From Natrinema versiforme (GTDB taxonomy: Archaea; Halobacteriota; Halobacteria; Halobacteriales; Natrialbaceae), in contig NZ_CP040330.1 in assembly GCF_005576615.1 (NCBI RefSeq), positions 3,410,001 to 3,474,000 of the forward strand: a stretch of 64,000 nucleotides of DNA, written 5' to 3'. The notes beneath the pieces are model-generated. The model did no database searches. It was not told the DNA's origin and saw only the letters and a list, made by a program, of their open reading frames with translations. Positions 6,216 to 57,852 of this stretch are shown here, piece by piece. A program made the position numbers and the translations under genes. Position 1 is the first letter of the stretch; each line of letters opens with the position of its first letter.

Positions 6216-7115
6216 ATGGGAGACATAGACATAGCAATCGGGATCGACGTTGATTGTGTCGCCGGCTGGCTCGGCTCCTACGGCGGCGAAGATTCGCCGG
6301 CAGACCTCTCGCGCGGACTGTGCGCAGGGAACGAAGGCATCCCGCGGATGCTCCAACTCCTCGAGGACGAGGGAGTGAAGGGATCGTGGTACGTCCCGGG
6401 CCACTCGATCGAGACTTTCGAGGAAGAAGTCCAAGCGGTCGCCGACGCCGGTCACGAACTCGGTGTCCACGGCTATTCCCACGAGAACCCGACGGACCTC
6501 TCGCGCGAGCAAGAAGACGAGATCATCGCCGTTTCGAAGGATCTCATCGAAGACGTCACGGGAGAAGAACCCGTCGGCCACCGTGCGAGCTGGTGGGAAT
6601 TCAGTGAGAACACGCCGGAACTCGTCGAAAAGCATGACTTCCTGTACGACAGCAGCCTGATGGAGCGGGAGTTCGAGCCGGGGTACATGCGCAAAGGCGA
6701 CGACTGGGAGCCGATCAAATACGATCAGGAGCCGGAGAGTTGGATGACGCCCTACGAATACGGCGAGGAAACGGACATCGTGGAGGTACCGATTAGCTGG
6801 TACCGCGACGACATCCCGCCGATGCTGTTCATCAAGCAGCCGTCGTACAACACCGGCTACAAGAGCCCCGTGATGATGTACGAGGAGTACTACAAGGCGC
6901 AGTTCGACTACCTGTACAACCGACGCGGCGCCGGCGTGTACACCTTTACCATTCACCCAGACATCCACGGGCTCCCGCACATGATCCCGCTGTTCGAGGA
7001 CTTCATCCAGTACGTCAAGAGCCACGAGAACGCGGAGTTCAAGACGATCGAAGAGATCGCTCGCAAGTACGAAGACGATCCGTCGGTCTACGAGAGCGAA
7101 GGCGAGTACATCTAG
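6216..7115 (+). CDS. Polysaccharide deacetylase/cyclic imidase-like metal hydrolase (HpPgdA-like)
   Basis: 299 residues, NodB-fold family. Candidate metal ligands are Asp13 in GIDVDC and His85/His89 in HGYSH; GHRASWW follows near residue 200 of the conserved core. The Asp13/His85/His89 spacing resembles the HpPgdA and cyclic-imide hydrolase branch more than chitin deacetylases, and there is no signal peptide, which argues for a cytoplasmic small-molecule substrate. Its promoter is divergent from an ABC uptake operon that also carries an asparaginase-like gene. A plausible job is opening a cyclic imide or deacylating an imported compound, with the asparaginase relative handling the resulting half-amide. 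This pathway is inference; the hydrolase family call is firm. Confidence 0.8.
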   Translation: MGDIDIAIGIDVDCVAGWLGSYGGEDSPADLSRGLCAGNEGIPRMLQLLEDEGVKGSWYVPGHSIETFEEEVQAVADAGHELGVHGYSHENPTDLSREQEDEIIAVSKDLIEDVTGEEPVGHRASWWEFSENTPELVEKHDFLYDSSLMEREFEPGYMRKGDDWEPIKYDQEPESWMTPYEYGEETDIVEVPISWYRDDIPPMLFIKQPSYNTGYKSPVMMYEEYYKAQFDYLYNRRGAGVYTFTIHPDIHGLPHMIPLFEDFIQYVKSHENAEFKTIEEIARKYEDDPSVYESEGEYI

Positions 7116-7141
7116 CGCCGCGTTCCGACCGAAACACTCCG

Positions 7142-7158
7142 TTATTTTTGCGCGTTTT
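7142..7158 (+). terminator. T-rich transcription terminator
   Basis: TTATTTTTGCGCGTTTT starts 27 bases after the stop of the imidase-like gene. T-runs without a hairpin are the usual archaeal terminators. Confidence 0.4.
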
Positions 7159-7224
7159 ACTCGGTACGTTCGATAGGAGCCGTGATAGCCGTGCCATCGG
7201 ACGAGTGGTTCGCATCGCCGTTCG

Positions 7225-7241
7225 GTTTGTACACCGCAAAC
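7225..7241. promoter_or_regulatory. Putative operator copy 1 (GTTTG-N7-CAAAC)
   Basis: Inverted repeat GTTTG-N7-CAAAC. It is the outermost of three copies with the same arm sequence and the same 7-base spacer in the 432-bp gap before the IclR gene. Confidence 0.55.
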
Positions 7242-7358
7242 ATATCTTCGAGATAGCGACCATATGAGTCCCTAATATCGATATAATAGTCAAAATATAA
7301 AATTATTACAGCCACAATAGCAGAAACGCGTACGAGTGAGAGGGAGTCCGTGGAGATT

Positions 7359-7377
7359 CGTTTGTAAATAGCAAACG
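7359..7377. promoter_or_regulatory. Putative operator copy 2 (CGTTTG-N7-CAAACG)
   Basis: Perfect 6-bp arms with spacer TAAATAG. Its centre is 135 bp from copy 1 and 140 bp from copy 3. Confidence 0.65.
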
Positions 7378-7498
7378 TGGGTGAAAGGCGTAGTAACGCG
7401 AGCATCGTTAACTAGTTTCACGATTTGTAGAAAACCACACTGCTGAAGCGACCCGAGAAAAATTCAGAGGTCGTTCAGAGAATGAATGTCAGTTGTAA

Positions 7499-7517
7499 CG
7501 TTTGCAGGCCACAAACG
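7499..7517. promoter_or_regulatory. Putative operator copy 3 overlapping the IclR promoter
   Basis: CGTTTG-CAGGCCA-CAAACG, perfect arms. It abuts the TATA-like GATATA at 7517-7522, which is 28 bp upstream of the IclR start at 7548. A bound dimer here would block assembly of TBP/TFB, so autoregulation is likely. Confidence 0.7.
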
Positions 7518-7547
7518 ATATAGGCTCAGTCGTGGTAAGACATCACG

Positions 7548-8354
7548 ATGACAGAGACCCCATCCGACCCCGACTCGCCCCGAACGCTCCAGACGGTCAC
7601 GAGAACGCTGGACGTGATCAAGGCGTTAAAGGAATTAAACGGCGCGACTGTCACCGAGTTAGCGTCTCATCTCGACCTCTCGAAAGGCGGGGCATACAAT
7701 CACTTGACGACGCTCAGGCAGAACGGGTTCGTGATCAAGAACGGCGACGAGTACGACCTCAGCCCGCGCTTCATCCTGATTGGGGAACACGTCCGTCAGG
7801 AGAACCTCCTGTATCGGTTCGGCAAGAAGGAGATCGACAAGCTCATCGAAGAAACCGGCGAGTACGCACAACTGGTGACCGAAAAGCACGGACTCGGTAT
7901 CGTTCTCTACCTGAAACGCGGTGAGAAGGCAATCGGCAGCGACTATCCGGATCAGATGGAACGGAAGCCGCTCGGCCTGCATCACACGGCTGCGGGGAAG
8001 TCGATCCTCGCGCATCTGCCGGACGAACGGGTCGAAGAAATCGTTGACCAACACGGGCTCCGAAAGCGAACTGCGAACACAATTACGGACATCGACGAAC
8101 TCTTCGAAGAGCGAGAGGTAGTCCGCGAGCGAGGGTACGCCTACAACATCGAAGAAGAGGTCGAAGGGCTCCGAGCCGTCGGGGCGGACATCAAAGGCCC
8201 GGACGGGAATATTCTCGGCGCGGTAAGCCTCTCGGGCCCGAAAAGCCGAATGCAGGGCGAACGATTCGAGGAAGAACTTCCGGAAATGGTGATGAACGCC
8301 GCCGATGTCATCGAGGTCAACATCAACATGCACGCTCAGTCGACGCAGTTTTGA
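7548..8354 (+). CDS. IclR family transcriptional regulator
   Basis: 268 residues. An N-terminal winged helix-turn-helix spans about residues 13-75 (TVTRTLDVIKALKEL, then TVTELASHLDLSKGGAYNHL as recognition region), followed by the IclR effector-binding domain with LHHTAAGKSILAHLP and the C-terminal GYAYNIEEEVEGLRAVGADI pattern. IclR proteins bind palindromic operators and sense small organic acids. The gene is next to the uptake/hydrolase cluster and is its best candidate regulator, and three identical palindromes sit in its upstream region. No matching palindrome was found in the divergent 6082-6215 promoter region. Confidence 0.93.
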   Translation: MTETPSDPDSPRTLQTVTRTLDVIKALKELNGATVTELASHLDLSKGGAYNHLTTLRQNGFVIKNGDEYDLSPRFILIGEHVRQENLLYRFGKKEIDKLIEETGEYAQLVTEKHGLGIVLYLKRGEKAIGSDYPDQMERKPLGLHHTAAGKSILAHLPDERVEEIVDQHGLRKRTANTITDIDELFEEREVVRERGYAYNIEEEVEGLRAVGADIKGPDGNILGAVSLSGPKSRMQGERFEEELPEMVMNAADVIEVNINMHAQSTQF

Positions 8355-9587
8355 GAGCGAACAGAGACTGTTACTTCCCGTTTCGTGCGTCCGATCGACA
8401 CCGTTCTCTTGATCCACAGCCAAATTTACAACCATATGGTCGTTATCCATCCAATGCGAGCATCCTACTCTGCTCGCCTTCGCGTCCAGAATTAGGACAT
8501 ATGTGATTACAAGTATGTGTTTGTAATTCATCAGAGAGGAGAATCGCACTGGCAGTAGCGAATTTCCAGTCGGTAGCAGCGCAACCATCGAGTTCCGTTT
8601 TCGTCCGATAGCAGTACGCTATGCTACTGAGATCACACAGTCGACAATGACTCGATGCTTGCATCTGTGGATATGAAGAACGGGACAGTCGACTCATCCC
8701 GCGATCGACATCACTCTCGATATCCTCGAGCAGTCCCATCGTCGAGACGATGCTGTTGTCATTCTCAACGAAAAAACCTGCGTAGCAACGTCCTATTTGA
8801 ACCGACCGGTGCATTGGCATGGGGGTGTTTCAATCTTGGCCCGAGCCGAGGATGCCGTTCGGCGTCGGACGACAGGTGAGTCGGTGCAATTTGTCGTGGT
8901 TCATTCCAGAAATCGACCGCCTCAACGATTCTCACGCACCGGTCCGATTGGGTTTCGCGAAGCGAGAGGCGATACCGTGGGAACTGATGCAAGTGAATTT
9001 TCCACACCATTTAGCAGAAGTATAACTTTGGAGTGTAGTTCAATACATCTAGAAGTAGTGTCTCGAGCGCTCGCGAGAGGCCGTTCGCGAGTGAGGAGAG
9101 AAGGCCGACCGACAGCCCACCATTGATGCGAGCCGAATCACGTTGTACTCGAGGAAACCGTGATTCGAATCGACTATCGGCAGTACTGACTGTACGCTGC
9201 GGTCGATTCAAAACGAACAGAATCCATCGAATACAGCTGTTTCCGGCGACTACGGTAGCAGTAACTGATCTCACTCTTCCAGCGTCGGTCGAGAAACGTG
9301 GCGTCGTCGAGGTCGTGTTTCTCGTCGATAAAGCACGGCGTTTCCAGTCGGGTACTCTGCCGACGCGGGCACCATTTCGAGACGAGAATCAGGGGTATCG
9401 GAACATCACCGAACGTATCTTCAGAGATATAAATCGAAAGACCTCTTCGATCGCAAACTGTTCAGTTACGGACAACCATCACTCCCGAATCGGAGCTCTA
9501 AGCCGTCGTCATTCTGCCCGGTGTGACAACCGAAACACGACCGGCCGGTACCAACGAACTGATTCGTGAACGCCGCCAGTGTCGCGG
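8355..9587. other. Gene-poor, AT-richer stretch without supportable genes
   Basis: About 1.2 kb with frequent stops in all frames and codon composition unlike the flanking genes. Short open frames on both strands (for example 8443-8820 minus) have Cys/Ser/Arg-rich, non-acidic translations that do not look haloarchaeal. It may be decayed mobile or accessory DNA; no transposase fragment could be recognised. Confidence 0.5.
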
Positions 9588-9770
9588 TCACGGCTCTCGA
9601 GTGAGGACGGCAAGCTTCGAGGGGGCCCTCGAGGGCGACGCTCGCGGATTACCAGGGTCGTCCGTCGTCGCCGTGACTGATCCGGCCGTTCCGGTCACGA
9701 ACGCGCCGACGCCGATCGATTTCAGGACGGTTCGTCTATCGATATCTAGGTGGTTGTGGTTGTCAACCAT
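9588..9770 (-). pseudogene. Truncated Tat-signal secreted protein (gene stub)
   Basis: A 60-residue frame begins with a clean Tat signal peptide: IDRRTVLKSIG followed by a hydrophobic stretch ending TAGSVTATT. After about 30 more residues it stops with no recognisable mature domain. An AT-rich TATA region (about 9785-9800) lies at leaderless distance from the ATG at 9770, so the promoter and start look genuine. The downstream 500 bases contain no continuation in any frame that I can follow. I read it as the 5' remnant of a secreted protein gene; a real tiny secreted peptide is the alternative. Confidence 0.45.
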
Positions 9771-10210
9771 ACGAATTCGTTGCACATATATATTCAATAA
9801 TTTTATCGAAGGATAAAACCTAGAACGCGCCAGTCGACCTATCGAACCGCAGATATGGCCCGTGAATCGCTTGTACGTCGCATTTTGATGCGACTGTGGC
9901 CGACCGAACGAAATCGTATAGTGTTCACTCTTCGGAACGTATTGGCGATTGCGATCGGCGAGAAACGGTGCTGGCCCACGGAAACCACTGGCTCTCGGCC
10001 GCACCGTCGAACATCCATTCGTCATTACCGAACCGTTGGGCCGATCGATCACGCCTGAAACGACCGATCCGAGGCGAAGCCGTCCTATCACTCGCGTCGA
10101 ATTATACGGCCGTAGGTGTGTAAGGGAAAGAGTACCGTCCGGACGGGGGTCACGTTCGAGACGAACGGAACCCCGGCTGGAACGCGACGACGGTTCGCGT
10201 CGGATAGGAC

Positions 10211-10570
10211 TCACGGCATCAACGGCGTGAGCAGCGGTTCACGGGAGACCAAGAGGACGACGTTGTTGCTCGCGAAGATGGCGTACATGACGACGACCGT
10301 GGCCACGAAGCCGATGTCGAACGGCCGCGAGAGGACGTAACCGATCGCGATCACGAAGCCGGCGTAGATGACGGCGGCGAGTACGACGCCGGCGAGTCCA
10401 AAGAGGTCGTACAGAAACACCGTCACGGGATTCAGTTCGTACGCGTAGGGCACGACGAAGAACAGGATCGTCGCGACGAGATCGACGAACCAGACGCTGA
10501 AAAACGCGGCGCGAAGGCTGGTGGTACCCGGTCTGTCCAACCCGATCCCGATTGAGGATGTTTCCACCAT
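10211..10570 (-). CDS. Small haloarchaeal membrane protein, unknown function
   Basis: 119 residues with three hydrophobic segments: AAFFSVWFVDLVATILFFVV, then LFGLAGVVLAAVIYAGFVIA, and GFVATVVVMYAIF. The motif ELNPV between helices 1 and 2 recalls DUF5658-type proteins, which carry ELNP at the same place; that assignment is tentative. The start at 10570 (MVETSSIG) was preferred to an upstream in-frame ATG because the extension is hydrophilic and atypical. It stands alone between non-coding DNA and a DUF3006-like gene on the same strand. Confidence 0.65.
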   Translation of the reverse strand: MVETSSIGIGLDRPGTTSLRAAFFSVWFVDLVATILFFVVPYAYELNPVTVFLYDLFGLAGVVLAAVIYAGFVIAIGYVLSRPFDIGFVATVVVMYAIFASNNVVLLVSREPLLTPLMP

Positions 10571-53193: not shown

Positions 53194-53351
53194 CCGAACG
53201 CCGTCGAGCGGGAGGTGGACGGCGAGCCACTGTCATGGGGCGGCTGCCGACCGGAAATGTGTGATCGGTCATATATCCCTCGGTGGTTGTGAACAACAGA
53301 CATAGTCGGAGGAGACGGAGTCCGTCGATGCGTTGTACCGGAGCGGCGACC

Positions 53352-53360
53352 TTTTTTATC
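53352..53360 (+). promoter_or_regulatory. TATA box of the MFS gene
   Basis: TTTTTTATC about 25 bp upstream of the ATG at 53381; supports that start over the in-frame ATG at 53333. Confidence 0.55.
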
Positions 53361-53380
53361 CGGGAACGCGGAGCCCGAGT

Positions 53381-54556
53381 ATGGACCGGGCCCGCGGCTG
53401 GACGATCGCGATCTTTCTGTTCGTGTTCGGCGACGCAGTGGCGATGCAGGCCCGGGGGCCGATCCTCTCGGAACTCGAGGCCGGATTCGGCGTCTCCGAG
53501 GGTGCACTGGGGCTGGTCGCACCGGCCGGGACCGCCGGCTTCGTGGTCGCCGTGGTCGCGACCGGGCTGCTCGCGGGCCGACTCCGCATGCGACGAACGC
53601 TGGTGGTCGGGGTCGTCGGCGTCGCCTGCGCGCTCGTCGCGATGGCGGCCGCGCCCCTGTACGCGGTCTTCCTGCTCGCGCTGCTCGCACAGGGGGCCGC
53701 TGCGGGCGCGTTTCGCGGCGTCGACCGCGTCGTATTGAGCCACCTCCACGCCGCCCGGCGCGGCCGGGTGTACACGGCCTACGCGCTCGTCTGGGCCGTC
53801 GGCGCGGTCGCCGGCCCGCAACTCGTCAGCGCCGTGCTCTCGGTCGCCGACTGGCGGGCCGTCTTCGTCGTCATCGCGCTCTGTTTCGTGCCGACCGCGG
53901 TCGCCGCCGGCCGCCTCGAGCTCCCCTCGATGTCCGCCGAGCGGTCGCTCTCGCGGGCCGCGCTCGCGGACCTGCTCCGCCGACCGTCGGTCGTCGGCGC
54001 GTGCGTCGGCATGCTGCTCGTCGGAGCCGTCGAGGGGATCATGTTCACGTGGCTCGCGTACTACGCGGGCGAGTTCTACGCCACGGCGACAGCGAACCTC
54101 CTGCTGTCGACGTACCTGCTCGCGTACATCCCCGCTCGGTTCGGATACACGCTCGCCGTCGACCGCGTGCCGTATCTCGCGCTGTTGTTCGTCGCCGTCC
54201 TGCCCGCGATCCCGGCGCTCGCGGTCGCGTTCTCCGGGACGACCGGCCCCGTGCTGTTCCTCGCCGTCTTCGTCGCCGGCGCGGGCCTCTCGAGTGGCTT
54301 CCCGATACTGGCGGCCTACGCCGTCGAGGCCGCGCCGTCGTACACCGGGCCGCTCAACGCGCTGACGACCGGCGCGACCTACGCGGGAATCGCGACCGCA
54401 CCCGCCGCCGTCGGCGCGCTCGCGGAACTGTACGGCATCGGGCGCGCGCTGTGGCTCGCGGTCGCCATCGCGGGCGCGCTCCTCGTCACGATCGGAGCGA
54501 CGTGGCTGTGGACCGGCACGGCGACCGCGCCGACGGTCGCGACGGCGTCGGATTAA
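53381..54556 (+). CDS. Major facilitator superfamily transporter
   Basis: 391 residues, twelve hydrophobic segments. N-terminal half shows GDAVAMQARGPILSELEAGF and the loop 2-3 region GLLAGRLRMRRTLVVG (MFS motif A-like, R-MRR), the second half ARFGYTLAVDRVPYLALL and ASYAVEAAPSYTGPLNAL-like stretches. Direction and substrate cannot be read. It is GC-rich like the genome average and converges on the AT-rich halocin-like gene 65 bp away, so it is probably not part of that island. Confidence 0.9.
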   Translation: MDRARGWTIAIFLFVFGDAVAMQARGPILSELEAGFGVSEGALGLVAPAGTAGFVVAVVATGLLAGRLRMRRTLVVGVVGVACALVAMAAAPLYAVFLLALLAQGAAAGAFRGVDRVVLSHLHAARRGRVYTAYALVWAVGAVAGPQLVSAVLSVADWRAVFVVIALCFVPTAVAAGRLELPSMSAERSLSRAALADLLRRPSVVGACVGMLLVGAVEGIMFTWLAYYAGEFYATATANLLLSTYLLAYIPARFGYTLAVDRVPYLALLFVAVLPAIPALAVAFSGTTGPVLFLAVFVAGAGLSSGFPILAAYAVEAAPSYTGPLNALTTGATYAGIATAPAAVGALAELYGIGRALWLAVAIAGALLVTIGATWLWTGTATAPTVATASD

Positions 54557-54621
54557 ATCCCAGATAGACAACGAGACTCAAGAACGAGATAATCAGACGA
54601 TTGCTGTTTCAGCGAATCACG

Positions 54622-55611
54622 TTAAAGCGTTGGATTGTCGCAGCTCGACGTGTATTGGTGACAGGACAATATCGTCAAACCAACACCTGGGAGACAAATA
54701 CTGATAATAGTTAAGGCACAAGCAGCGCCTATCGGGCCAAAAAAGCCACATCCAGCGGCGGCCAGCCCACAATTAGGCGCTGACGTTATCAAATCGGCAG
54801 CACAGGATATCGCCATTTTACTACATTCTTTTGACTGATGGGATTGTATCGAAATTCCATCAGATTGTGTGAATTGATCCGAGAGGGGAGTTGTTTCTGT
54901 AACGGCCATGGTATCATAATCAATTCGAGTGATAGTCTCCCCAGAGAACACCACGATCTCGTTCCGACCTTCCCGTTTCTTTTTTGCTCTCTGCCCACGT
55001 GAATCCTTCAATTCAGAGATGACAGAGATGCTTGTCTGATCGCGCTGTTCTGTTTCTGTCACCTGCAGAGCGTTTTCGCGTTCGGCATCAGTCGGTTCCC
55101 TGACGAAAATGAGTGGCTTGTCGACAGATTTCGAGAGTACCTTGGCATTTGTATTTTTCGGCCATCCTATTGAGCCAGAAATTCTCTTTTCGATTCCTGT
55201 TGGGATATTCGATTTCTCGAGATCGATATACGCAATCCCGTCACTTTCGTCTAATGTCTTTCTCAGGACACCGTACTTTGTCTGTATAGAGAGGATACTG
55301 GATAGTTTTGTGCCGTCTTTTTCTAGAGAGTATACAGTGGCATCATCCGTGGACATTTTTCCAGGAGTGATGGAAAGTGTCTCTAAGATAGATTCCACAG
55401 TCGGATCGCTAAGCATCTCTTCAATCTCACTCGCTTCTGCAGAGCGTTCGTTTGATACGGGAGCGTTCGACGTAGCAGAGACGGCATTGGAAGTTCCGAC
55501 TATCCCTGCTGTACCGGCTAAGCCACCCCCAAGAGAACTGAGGACTTTTCTTCGTGCGATATTGTTTGATTGTTCATCGTTATAGTCGCTGTTATACGAA
55601 TTACCCATCAT
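54622..55611 (-). CDS. Halocin C8-like bacteriocin precursor (Tat-exported, Cys-rich C-terminus)
   Basis: 329 residues. A Tat signal is clear (ARRKVLSSLGGGLAGTAGIV, residues 19-38, ending near SAT at 45-47). Residues about 48-255 are hydrophilic, with no Cys at all. The last about 70 residues switch to a hydrophobic, Gly/Ala/Ile-rich peptide with eight Cys at 263, 270, 281, 288, 298, 306, 317 and 324. Halocin C8 is made in this way: one precursor with Tat signal, an immunity part and a Cys-rich C-terminal peptide. The gene is visibly AT-richer than its neighbours, indicating transfer. It could instead be another secreted Cys-rich protein, but the architecture argues for an antimicrobial. No separate maturation gene is adjacent. 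Confidence 0.75.
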   Translation of the reverse strand: MMGNSYNSDYNDEQSNNIARRKVLSSLGGGLAGTAGIVGTSNAVSATSNAPVSNERSAEASEIEEMLSDPTVESILETLSITPGKMSTDDATVYSLEKDGTKLSSILSIQTKYGVLRKTLDESDGIAYIDLEKSNIPTGIEKRISGSIGWPKNTNAKVLSKSVDKPLIFVREPTDAERENALQVTETEQRDQTSISVISELKDSRGQRAKKKREGRNEIVVFSGETITRIDYDTMAVTETTPLSDQFTQSDGISIQSHQSKECSKMAISCAADLITSAPNCGLAAAGCGFFGPIGAACALTIISICLPGVGLTILSCHQYTSSCDNPTL

Positions 55612-55932
55612 ACTGTAACCTTACATTTCAGCACCCATACTTATATTTTTCTGCTGTTATGATATGCGTGTATCCCACGAGGTATCCCATAATACGCAGT
55701 TGTTTCCTCATCGGCACACCCATTTACATACGGACATGTTCCGGAGAGCGCTATTCTGGCAGAATCTTTTGAGGGGATCGGAAAATGCCGGAACAGTACA
55801 GAAAAATTGCTAGAGATCGACGACGAGAACCCACTAAACCGGTTACGGAACCAGATTATCACAATTGAGCGACCACGAAGACGGGACGACACCACCGCCG
55901 TTCCCGTCGACGATGACATTGGCAACGCGACT
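55612..55932. other. AT-rich intergenic region upstream of the halocin-like gene
   Basis: 321 bases, part of the AT-rich island. On the minus strand an AAAATATAAG-type box (about 55643-55652) lies 32-40 bp upstream of the precursor start. No convincing additional gene; the small plus-strand frame 55554-55772 has atypical composition. Confidence 0.5.
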
Positions 55933-57618
55933 TCAGTCGTCTGCTGGCGTGCCGTGACCGCTCTGGAACTGCGCGTCGGGGACCGTTCCGTCGTCGTTCC
56001 AGCCGCGTTCGTCGTAGTACTCCGCGAGTCCCTGCTCGAAGTCCGGAATCTCGTAGGGGAGCCGATCGTCGGCCCGGTCGAAGCCGCGCTGATTGTTGAA
56101 GTGGCGCTCGAGGGAGACGATCTCGCCGCCGAGTGCGAGCAGTTCCTCGTAGTCGGCGTCGAGCAGTCCTTCGAAGCGCTCCTCGGTGATGAAGTCCCGC
56201 GAGAACTTACAGAGGACGGCGCTGTCCTTGATGACGTTGCTGTTCTCGAGTTCGACCACCTTTGGCGGTTTCCCCTCGAGGCCGGACTTGTCGAAGGCGT
56301 CGTCGGCGTCGACGAGCGGGTACTCGTAGGGGTAGAACTCGGCGTACATGTGGTCGGCACCGCGGTTCGAGGTGGCGAAGGCCAGTCCCTGTCCGTTCAG
56401 GGTGCGACCGTCGTGGGCGGCGAACTCCATGCCCTTGACCGACCAGTTCTCGACGCCGAGGTCGTCGTGGATACGGTCGATGCCCTCCGCGAGCTGATCC
56501 CCGACGCCCTCGCGGTAGGCGATCTTCTCGACGAGGTCGTGGATCAGGTCGACGTTACCGAACTCGTCTTCGCTGGCGAGGTAGGCCGCGATGGTGTCGC
56601 CCGCCGAGATGGTGTCTACTCCGTACTCGTCGCAGAGCTTGTTCGACTTCATCACGTCGACGATGTTGTCGACGCCCGAGTTCGGGCCGAAGGCCATCAG
56701 CGTCTCGTACTCGGGACCTTCGGTCTCGAGGCCGGACTCCTCGTCTCGAGTCGGCAGTTTGCAGGCGAAGGCACACGACGAGCAGGTGCCTTTCTTGTAC
56801 TTCTTCTCCTCGACGCGGTCGCCGTTGACCCCCTCGATGCCCTCGAAGGAGAGCTCCGAGAAGTAGTAGCTCGGCAGGGCCTCGACCATGTTTGCGTACT
56901 CCGCGACGGAAGTGGTGCCCTGATCACGCATCGGGCTGTCGGAGTTTGCGGCCTCGCCATGGATCTCCATCTGGAGCGACGGGATCTCGACCTCGCGGGT
57001 CGAGTCGCCGTCGAAGGTGATCGCCTTGACGTTTTTCGATCCCAGCACGGCACCGAGTCCGCCGCGGCCGAAGGCTCGCTCCTCGGAGGTCATGATCGAG
57101 GCGAACCGGACCCGATTCTCGCCGGCCGGCCCGATAACGGTGGTGTGCTCCGAGCCGAGGCCGTGTTCGTCCTCGATGTACTCGCAGGTCTCGGGGACGG
57201 TCGCCTCCGCGAGGTCGGGTACTTCCTCGAACTCGACGCCCTCGTCGGTGACGTGGACGATGACGAGTTCGTCGCTCGCGCCGGTGATCTCGACGGCGCT
57301 GTAGCCCGTGCCGGTGAAGTTTCGCGAGAGGAAGCCGCCAGCGTTCGAGGACAGCAATCCGTCGGTCAGCGGCGAGACGCCGGTCGCCGACATCCGGCCG
57401 GTGAAGCTCATCATCGAGTGCTGGAGCGGCCCCGTCGCGAAGAACAGCCGGTTTTCAGGCCCCAGCGGGTCGGCGTCGAACGGGATCCGGTCGTGGGCGA
57501 GTTTCGTGCCGAGCGCCCGCCCGCCGATCGACGACTCGAGGAGGTCGTCGATGTCCTCGGTCTCGGCCGTTCGGTCGCCGACATCGATCGAATACAGCGG
57601 TCCCCGTACGTGTTTCAT
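55933..57618 (-). CDS. Aldehyde ferredoxin oxidoreductase (tungsten/molybdopterin enzyme)
   Basis: 561 residues. The N-terminal domain shows GRALGTKLAHDRIPFDADPLGPEN and the AOR block GFLSRNFTGTGYSAVEITGA, with RFASIMTSEERAFGRGGLGAVLGSKNVKAI. The Fe-S ligand motif CSSCAFAC (Cys-X2-Cys-X3-Cys) lies near residue 285, with a later Cys in DSAVLCKFSRD. EGPEYETLMAFGPNSGVDN and GVDTISAGDTIA are further family motifs. It oxidises aldehydes to acids (or reduces acids) with ferredoxin as partner. It is transcribed alone. ATG 57618 was chosen; the upstream extension is Arg-rich and not family-like. Confidence 0.93.
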   Translation of the reverse strand: MKHVRGPLYSIDVGDRTAETEDIDDLLESSIGGRALGTKLAHDRIPFDADPLGPENRLFFATGPLQHSMMSFTGRMSATGVSPLTDGLLSSNAGGFLSRNFTGTGYSAVEITGASDELVIVHVTDEGVEFEEVPDLAEATVPETCEYIEDEHGLGSEHTTVIGPAGENRVRFASIMTSEERAFGRGGLGAVLGSKNVKAITFDGDSTREVEIPSLQMEIHGEAANSDSPMRDQGTTSVAEYANMVEALPSYYFSELSFEGIEGVNGDRVEEKKYKKGTCSSCAFACKLPTRDEESGLETEGPEYETLMAFGPNSGVDNIVDVMKSNKLCDEYGVDTISAGDTIAAYLASEDEFGNVDLIHDLVEKIAYREGVGDQLAEGIDRIHDDLGVENWSVKGMEFAAHDGRTLNGQGLAFATSNRGADHMYAEFYPYEYPLVDADDAFDKSGLEGKPPKVVELENSNVIKDSAVLCKFSRDFITEERFEGLLDADYEELLALGGEIVSLERHFNNQRGFDRADDRLPYEIPDFEQGLAEYYDERGWNDDGTVPDAQFQSGHGTPADD

Positions 57619-57852
57619 AGTCACACAGTGGTGGTCACGGCCGCAAAACGGTATCGGTTTTCGAGATCGGGGCCGCGGTTCGACCCGCCGTCGTAGCGTG
57701 TCACAGGCGGTTGTCGACGGCGTTGGAACGACATCCGACCCGCCGGTTCGGCCGCGGATCGGTGACACTGAACGCCCTATCCCCGCCTCTCACTCCCACG
57801 TTCACTCTCGCTCGAGCGGAACGTTTATCCGAGTACCGAAGAAGCCGCCCGC

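Follow-up and report, generated by a model that had tools for sequence, protein, structure and literature searches.

A gene on the minus strand of the window, the stretch of 64,000 nucleotides from Natrinema versiforme analysed here, probably codes for a halocin-like precursor of a secreted antimicrobial peptide, whose toxicity we infer. In the mechanism that we propose, the folded precursor would be exported via the Tat pathway and cut near residue 256 by an extracellular protease, for instance a subtilase of the halolysin type (subtilases are present in the genome), which would release a hydrophobic peptide of about 73 residues with four short helices and nested disulfides. The freed peptide may harm archaea related to the producer, probably by acting on their membrane; until cleavage the prodomain would hold it folded and inactive, and it may also protect the producer. 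A weapon is favoured over a housekeeping or surface protein because, in the family concerned, tails are exchanged, precursor genes form clusters and small membrane genes are found as neighbours. The genes of only a few antimicrobial peptides from archaea are known, and TIGR04449 is the sole curated halocin model that we met in this work.

The precursor gene and its AT-rich insert

Reading of the open reading frames gave an uninterrupted frame of 329 codons plus a stop from 55611 to 54622 on the minus strand (Table 1). A preliminary description of this DNA had assigned to its product a Tat signal, a Cys-free middle of about 200 residues and a hydrophobic tail with eight Cys within 62 residues, and all three parts were recovered. 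The twin-arginine motif ARRKVLSSLGGG occupies residues 19-30 and is followed by a hydrophobic stretch up to AVSA46; the two arginines are invariant in both the 6- and the 9-sequence alignment of the family. Tat models gave matches in 23 and 13 of 41 family members, mostly below the cut-off. The GRAVY value is +0.66 for the tail and -0.59 for the middle segment. The Cys residues of the tail stand at positions 263, 270, 281, 288, 298, 306, 317 and 324, spanning 62 residues, and the gaps between them (6, 10, 6, 9, 7, 10 and 6) are exactly those described before. Given how often Cys occurs in the long acidic ORFs of the window, the binomial probability of eight Cys in 72 residues is about 7e-8. 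Ahead of the gene, AAAATATAAG may represent a TATA-box-like element, judged from the letters only.

Table 1. Features in and around the precursor gene, in window positions
Feature	Position	Strand	Evidence or remark
Precursor gene, intact (329 codons and a stop)	54622..55611	-	Full-length homologues, best E 8e-31
Tat signal peptide region, residues 1-46	55474..55611	-	Twin arginine 20-21
Cys-free prodomain, residues 47-256 (210 aa)	54844..55473	-	AlphaFold2: beta-rich, pLDDT mostly above 90
Helix-loop-helix, residues 60-78	55378..55434	-	Same place as 54-79 in the halocin C8 precursor model
Mature peptide (predicted), roughly residues 257-329	54625..54843	-	Cleavage position approximate
Eight-cysteine core, C263-C324	54640..54825	-	Cys co-occurrence in homologues and low-confidence helix model
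Candidate TATA-box-like element AAAATATAAG	55640..55650	-	Some 30 nt ahead of the first ATG; read from sequence
AT-rich accessory insert between two convergent genes	54557..55900		GC of 39-53% in most 100-bp steps
Flanking MFS transporter gene (PF07690)	53333..54556	+	Outside the insert
Flanking conserved gene	55933..57768	-	Found in almost all of the 29 Natrinema genomes searched

The AlphaFold2 model of the tail contains helices at residues 261-277, 279-290, 295-306 and 311-322, with low confidence (pLDDT about 58). The model of the prodomain had no fold match among PDB or viral structures at E<=0.001, and a PDB match is likewise absent for the model of the halocin C8 precursor; the matches returned by PDB sequence and fold searches were due to the Tat signal or to chance. 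A cleavage motif of the V-S-T/I-Q type had been suspected before the first Cys, but even a loose form of it was present in no more than 15 of 47 members, so no cleavage site is claimed.

The gene had also been described as AT-richer than both flanks and as recently acquired. Its GC content is 46% and its GC3 is 45%, against a GC3 of 86-91% in four neighbouring genes, and the AT-rich stretch extends from about 54,560 to 55,900. The flanking gene on the minus strand reads as a putative aldehyde ferredoxin oxidoreductase. In three of the 29 Natrinema genomes (G144, G397 and G118) the two flanking genes face each other across a gap of 80-95 bp with nothing inside, whereas the gap in the window is about 1.38 kb. 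Since the flanking genes stand directly together in these three relatives, we regard the precursor gene as an accessory insert, and the empty site supports a recent acquisition. Neither a target-site duplication nor a flanking repeat was found that would mark the insertion. The gene is present in a single copy in its genome, and no full-length copy was seen in the other Natrinema genomes searched. An origin from a plasmid or virus is not supported, because no relatives of the protein were found in plasmid records, phage records or viral contigs. A similar composition is common in the family: at 31 of 35 loci the gene is lower in GC than its flanks, the difference exceeding 5 points at 22 of them, and two islets have a GC content of 42-54% inside 68-72% (L119) and 44-56% inside about 70% (L120). 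As separate observations, Natrinema genomes differ in whether they carry the MFS transporter gene at this place (G164 lacks it there), and a second low-GC stretch (52-59%) lies at 6500-10500 of the window, which is otherwise mostly 60-70% GC.

Family members and cysteine pairing

A protein search of 391 haloarchaeal genomes yielded full-length relatives with 24-31% identity, and a profile search yielded at least 48 further distinct family proteins, with about 38 of the 391 genomes (about 10%) represented; these counts are lower bounds, as few candidates were scored per genome. Profile matches that covered just the first 100 positions or so were Tat signals and were excluded. The members share a common plan of a Tat signal, a related prodomain and, in nearly all cases, a Cys-rich C-terminal tail. 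No model in Pfam or NCBIfam covers any part of them beyond the Tat signal. We concluded that this is a separate, unnamed family, absent from Pfam and NCBIfam, of which an earlier mention in the literature is possible. Scanning of contigs with the full window protein as a single sequence gave no relatives; scanning with the tail alignment gave three, in Natrinema mahii, Haloferax mucosum and Haloferax elongans. Several relatives are decayed: one in the same genus retains the prodomain without the tail (L101, G375:C1), that of Natrinema mahii retains the tail without the prodomain and is cut at a sharp GC boundary (L112, G107:C1), and that of Haloferax elongans is interrupted by a stop. At the other extreme, at least four different family precursors lie within about 7 kb at one locus (L094, G113:C17:302000-311500), which is probably a bacteriocin cluster.

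The tails of the family fit the template C1-(C1')-C2-C3-(C3')-C4-C5-(C5')-C6-C7-(C7')-C8, distributed across four predicted helices. In the window protein, the eight Cys without a prime are present. Other tails add C3' with C5' and C1' with C7', which brings them to 10 or 12 Cys, and some are without C3 and C6 or without C4 and C5. In 35 non-redundant tails (less than 60% identical), both partners were present or both absent in 17 and 18 tails for C1'-C7', in 30 and 5 for C3-C6, in 30 and 5 for C3'-C5', and in 32 and 3 for C4-C5, with no exceptions, these being counts of sequences and not of independent events. The phi coefficient of the four variable pairs is therefore 1.0 in this set; it is 0.88-1.0 in the 42 tails with redundancy included. 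Tails with two or more unplaceable Cys (for example L091, L094:867-1883, L103, L108 and L110) were left out, and the score used in fitting Cys to slots favours filled slots, not pairing. Loss of C3 and C6 arose at least twice, because it is found both in the eight-Cys subfamily (L005) and in the primed subfamily (L106 and L107).

Since these Cys are gained and lost in pairs, nested disulfides are expected, from helix 1 to helix 4 and from helix 2 to helix 3. For the window tail the predicted bonds are 263-324, 270-317, 281-306 and 288-298, and the paired Cys support the idea of disulfides, four of which had been put forward for it as possible. Among 23 TIGR04449 proteins, co-variation is seen once for the first and last Cys and four times for the fourth and seventh; these few events (a-j and d-g) would fit the same nesting. 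A disulfide map of this kind is directly testable, and it would extend to halocin C8.

Tail exchange, neighbouring genes and alternative explanations

Two tandem paralogues in one genome (G370) are 95% identical in the prodomain half, with 89% identity at third codon positions; their tails are 44% identical, with 32% identity at third codon positions. We concluded from this pair that tails are swapped as modules. The occurrence of the same prodomain with different tails raises the question of how the producer protects itself, and it would speak against immunity by the prodomain that is specific to one tail.

The genes downstream bear on the same question. A small ORF (50-230 aa) with multiple transmembrane segments lies within 200 bp downstream at 20 of 48 family loci and of 12 of 88 control genes (p 5e-4), and is co-directional at 13 of the 48 (p 0.01), the control being rough, ORF-based and small. 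The same holds for 12 of 24 TIGR04449 loci, for example with an ORF of 61 aa at 18 bp (L034) and one of 83 aa at 14 bp (L054). These neighbours, together with the swapping of tails, point to another immunity arrangement or to a role of the prodomain that would be general rather than tail-specific. No small membrane gene adjoins the window copy, so that no dedicated immunity gene is visible at this locus. A membrane protein with the motif PEYTGENRC.PCT adjoins family precursors at L002, L027/L071, L075 and L113, and a variant of it adjoins one TIGR04449 precursor (L048). We considered it as a specific partner, but proteins of this kind occur in 49 of 59 genomes, and we note no more than a loose association.

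In the literal halocin C8 scheme, which is a version of the precursor explanation and not exclusive of it, the prodomain would be a dedicated immunity protein of the HalI type for its own tail. The prodomain matches HalI in size and place and has a helix-loop-helix at the equal position, and a helix-loop-helix motif at the N terminus of HalI, to go by the title of Mei et al. 2008 (cited in PMC11509114), is said to be essential for immunity. The lack of a separate immunity gene beside the window copy agrees with this scheme. On the other side stand the near-identical prodomain halves with different tails in G370 and the small membrane genes beside many relatives and half of the TIGR04449 loci, which could provide immunity. 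A general carrier would fit the shared prodomain half, the differing tails and the membrane-gene neighbours better than an immunity protein does, and we hold the dedicated role to be possible with the balance tilted against it.

It is unlikely that the product is a cell-surface or secreted protein from which nothing is released, with the Cys-rich tail as a structural or interaction module for anchoring, adhesion or self-recognition. What speaks for such a module, besides the hydrophobicity of the tail, is a homologue in which the tail stands behind a beta-rich region of about 700 residues. This Tat protein of 1096 aa (L113 777-4067, G383:C4) has a beta-rich region (PF22237, SO2946-like) ahead of the prodomain and the eight-Cys tail. 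The preliminary description had named a tail embedded in a larger enzyme as evidence against its reading, and such proteins were looked for; the fusion does exist, but the SO2946-like domain is the sole partner recognised in it, no enzyme domain was found and the tail is still C-terminal. Part of this fusion is repeated elsewhere on the same contig (L114). Against a surface module, tails are exchanged and diversified on a conserved prodomain, the genes are accessory islets, and the predicted topology of the tail agrees with that of the halocin C8 family, the best-known member of which is released as a peptide (PMC11509114). Finally, it is quite improbable that the gene is foreign DNA that is silent or in decay and has no function at present. 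Such a state might be suggested by its foreign composition, its single copy, the lack of a full-length copy in the other Natrinema genomes searched and the decayed relatives in Natrinema mahii, G375 and Haloferax elongans; against it, the frame of the window copy is unbroken through 329 codons, none of the eight Cys or of the prodomain residues conserved in the family is lost, and the TATA-like element precedes the gene.

Relation to halocin C8 and other known systems

Saposin-like peptides of the NK-lysin and amoebapore type have nested disulfides that tie the two outer helices (1 and 4) to each other and likewise the two inner ones (2 and 3). The likeness of the window tail to them is one of topology only, no sequence or fold match having been found, and is likely an analogy. 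A second comparison is offered by HmHapP (HFX_0892) of Haloferax mediterranei, a secreted haloarchaeal precursor which is cut by an extracellular serine protease to give an antagonistic fragment, and for which activation by halolysin has been shown (PMC12893001). The protease step is of the kind proposed here for the window protein; the active fragment of HmHapP, however, is the N terminus with its helices, and a Cys-rich tail is not described in the parts of that source used here (PMC12893001).

The window protein had been called halocin C8-like, a claim that stands for the layout, which is that of ProC8, and for the order of elements in the AlphaFold2 models, but not for family membership. 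TIGR04449 matched none of 41 family members at E<=1 and did not match the window protein at E<=10, and it has no match in the window genome. The Cys spacing differs as well: the eight Cys of the window tail are separated by 6, 10, 6, 9, 7, 10 and 6 residues, and the ten Cys of halocin C8 by 2, 7, 3, 7, 13, 7, 8, 8 and 5. When whole mature profiles of the window family and the TIGR04449 proteins were aligned by hhalign, the probability was 88% and the score 47.4; among the controls, the reversed profile scored 32.0, the best of 60 column shuffles 17.3 and the best of 60 shuffles with Cys fixed 30.4. Aligned separately, the tail (17.6) and the prodomain (20.6) gave weak scores, and the prodomain match was limited to the helix-loop-helix. 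These profile and model comparisons indicate a probable remote homology.

In both AlphaFold2 models the prodomain is predicted with high confidence and follows the order E-H-H-E-E-E-E at nearly equal residue numbers, with divergence afterwards; the prodomain of the window protein is longer than that of halocin C8 and has extra strands. Both tails are modelled as four helices, that of halocin C8 with fair confidence (about 80). One precursor of 283 residues (L036), which we take to be ProC8, ends in 76 residues that start with DIDITGCSAC, and these sizes agree with those of ProC8 and mature halocin C8. The published lengths are 283 aa for the ProC8 precursor and 76 aa for mature halocin C8 (PMC11509114).

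TIGR04449 was found in 43 of the 391 haloarchaeal genomes and the new family in about 38, so that the two are similarly frequent, and adding a family of the halocin C8 layout that about one haloarchaeal genome in ten carries would make the list of candidates about twice as long. Tentatively, and at somewhat less than even chances, it may constitute a second superfamily of archaeal bacteriocin precursors, as common as that of halocin C8, in which a conserved Tat-exported prodomain would act as a general carrier and safety catch for exchangeable tails of 8, 10 or 12 Cys built on one nested disulfide ladder, and in which immunity would come from small neighbouring membrane proteins and not from the prodomain. 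Both families, ProC8 with TIGR04449 and that of the window protein, are haloarchaeal, Natrinema included, and combine in one precursor a Tat signal, a Cys-free prodomain of about 170-210 residues and, at the C terminus, a tail of about 75 residues that is hydrophobic, rich in Cys and predicted to form four helices; they also share the neighbouring small membrane genes, and the co-variation suggests that a nested pairing of the Cys may be common to both.
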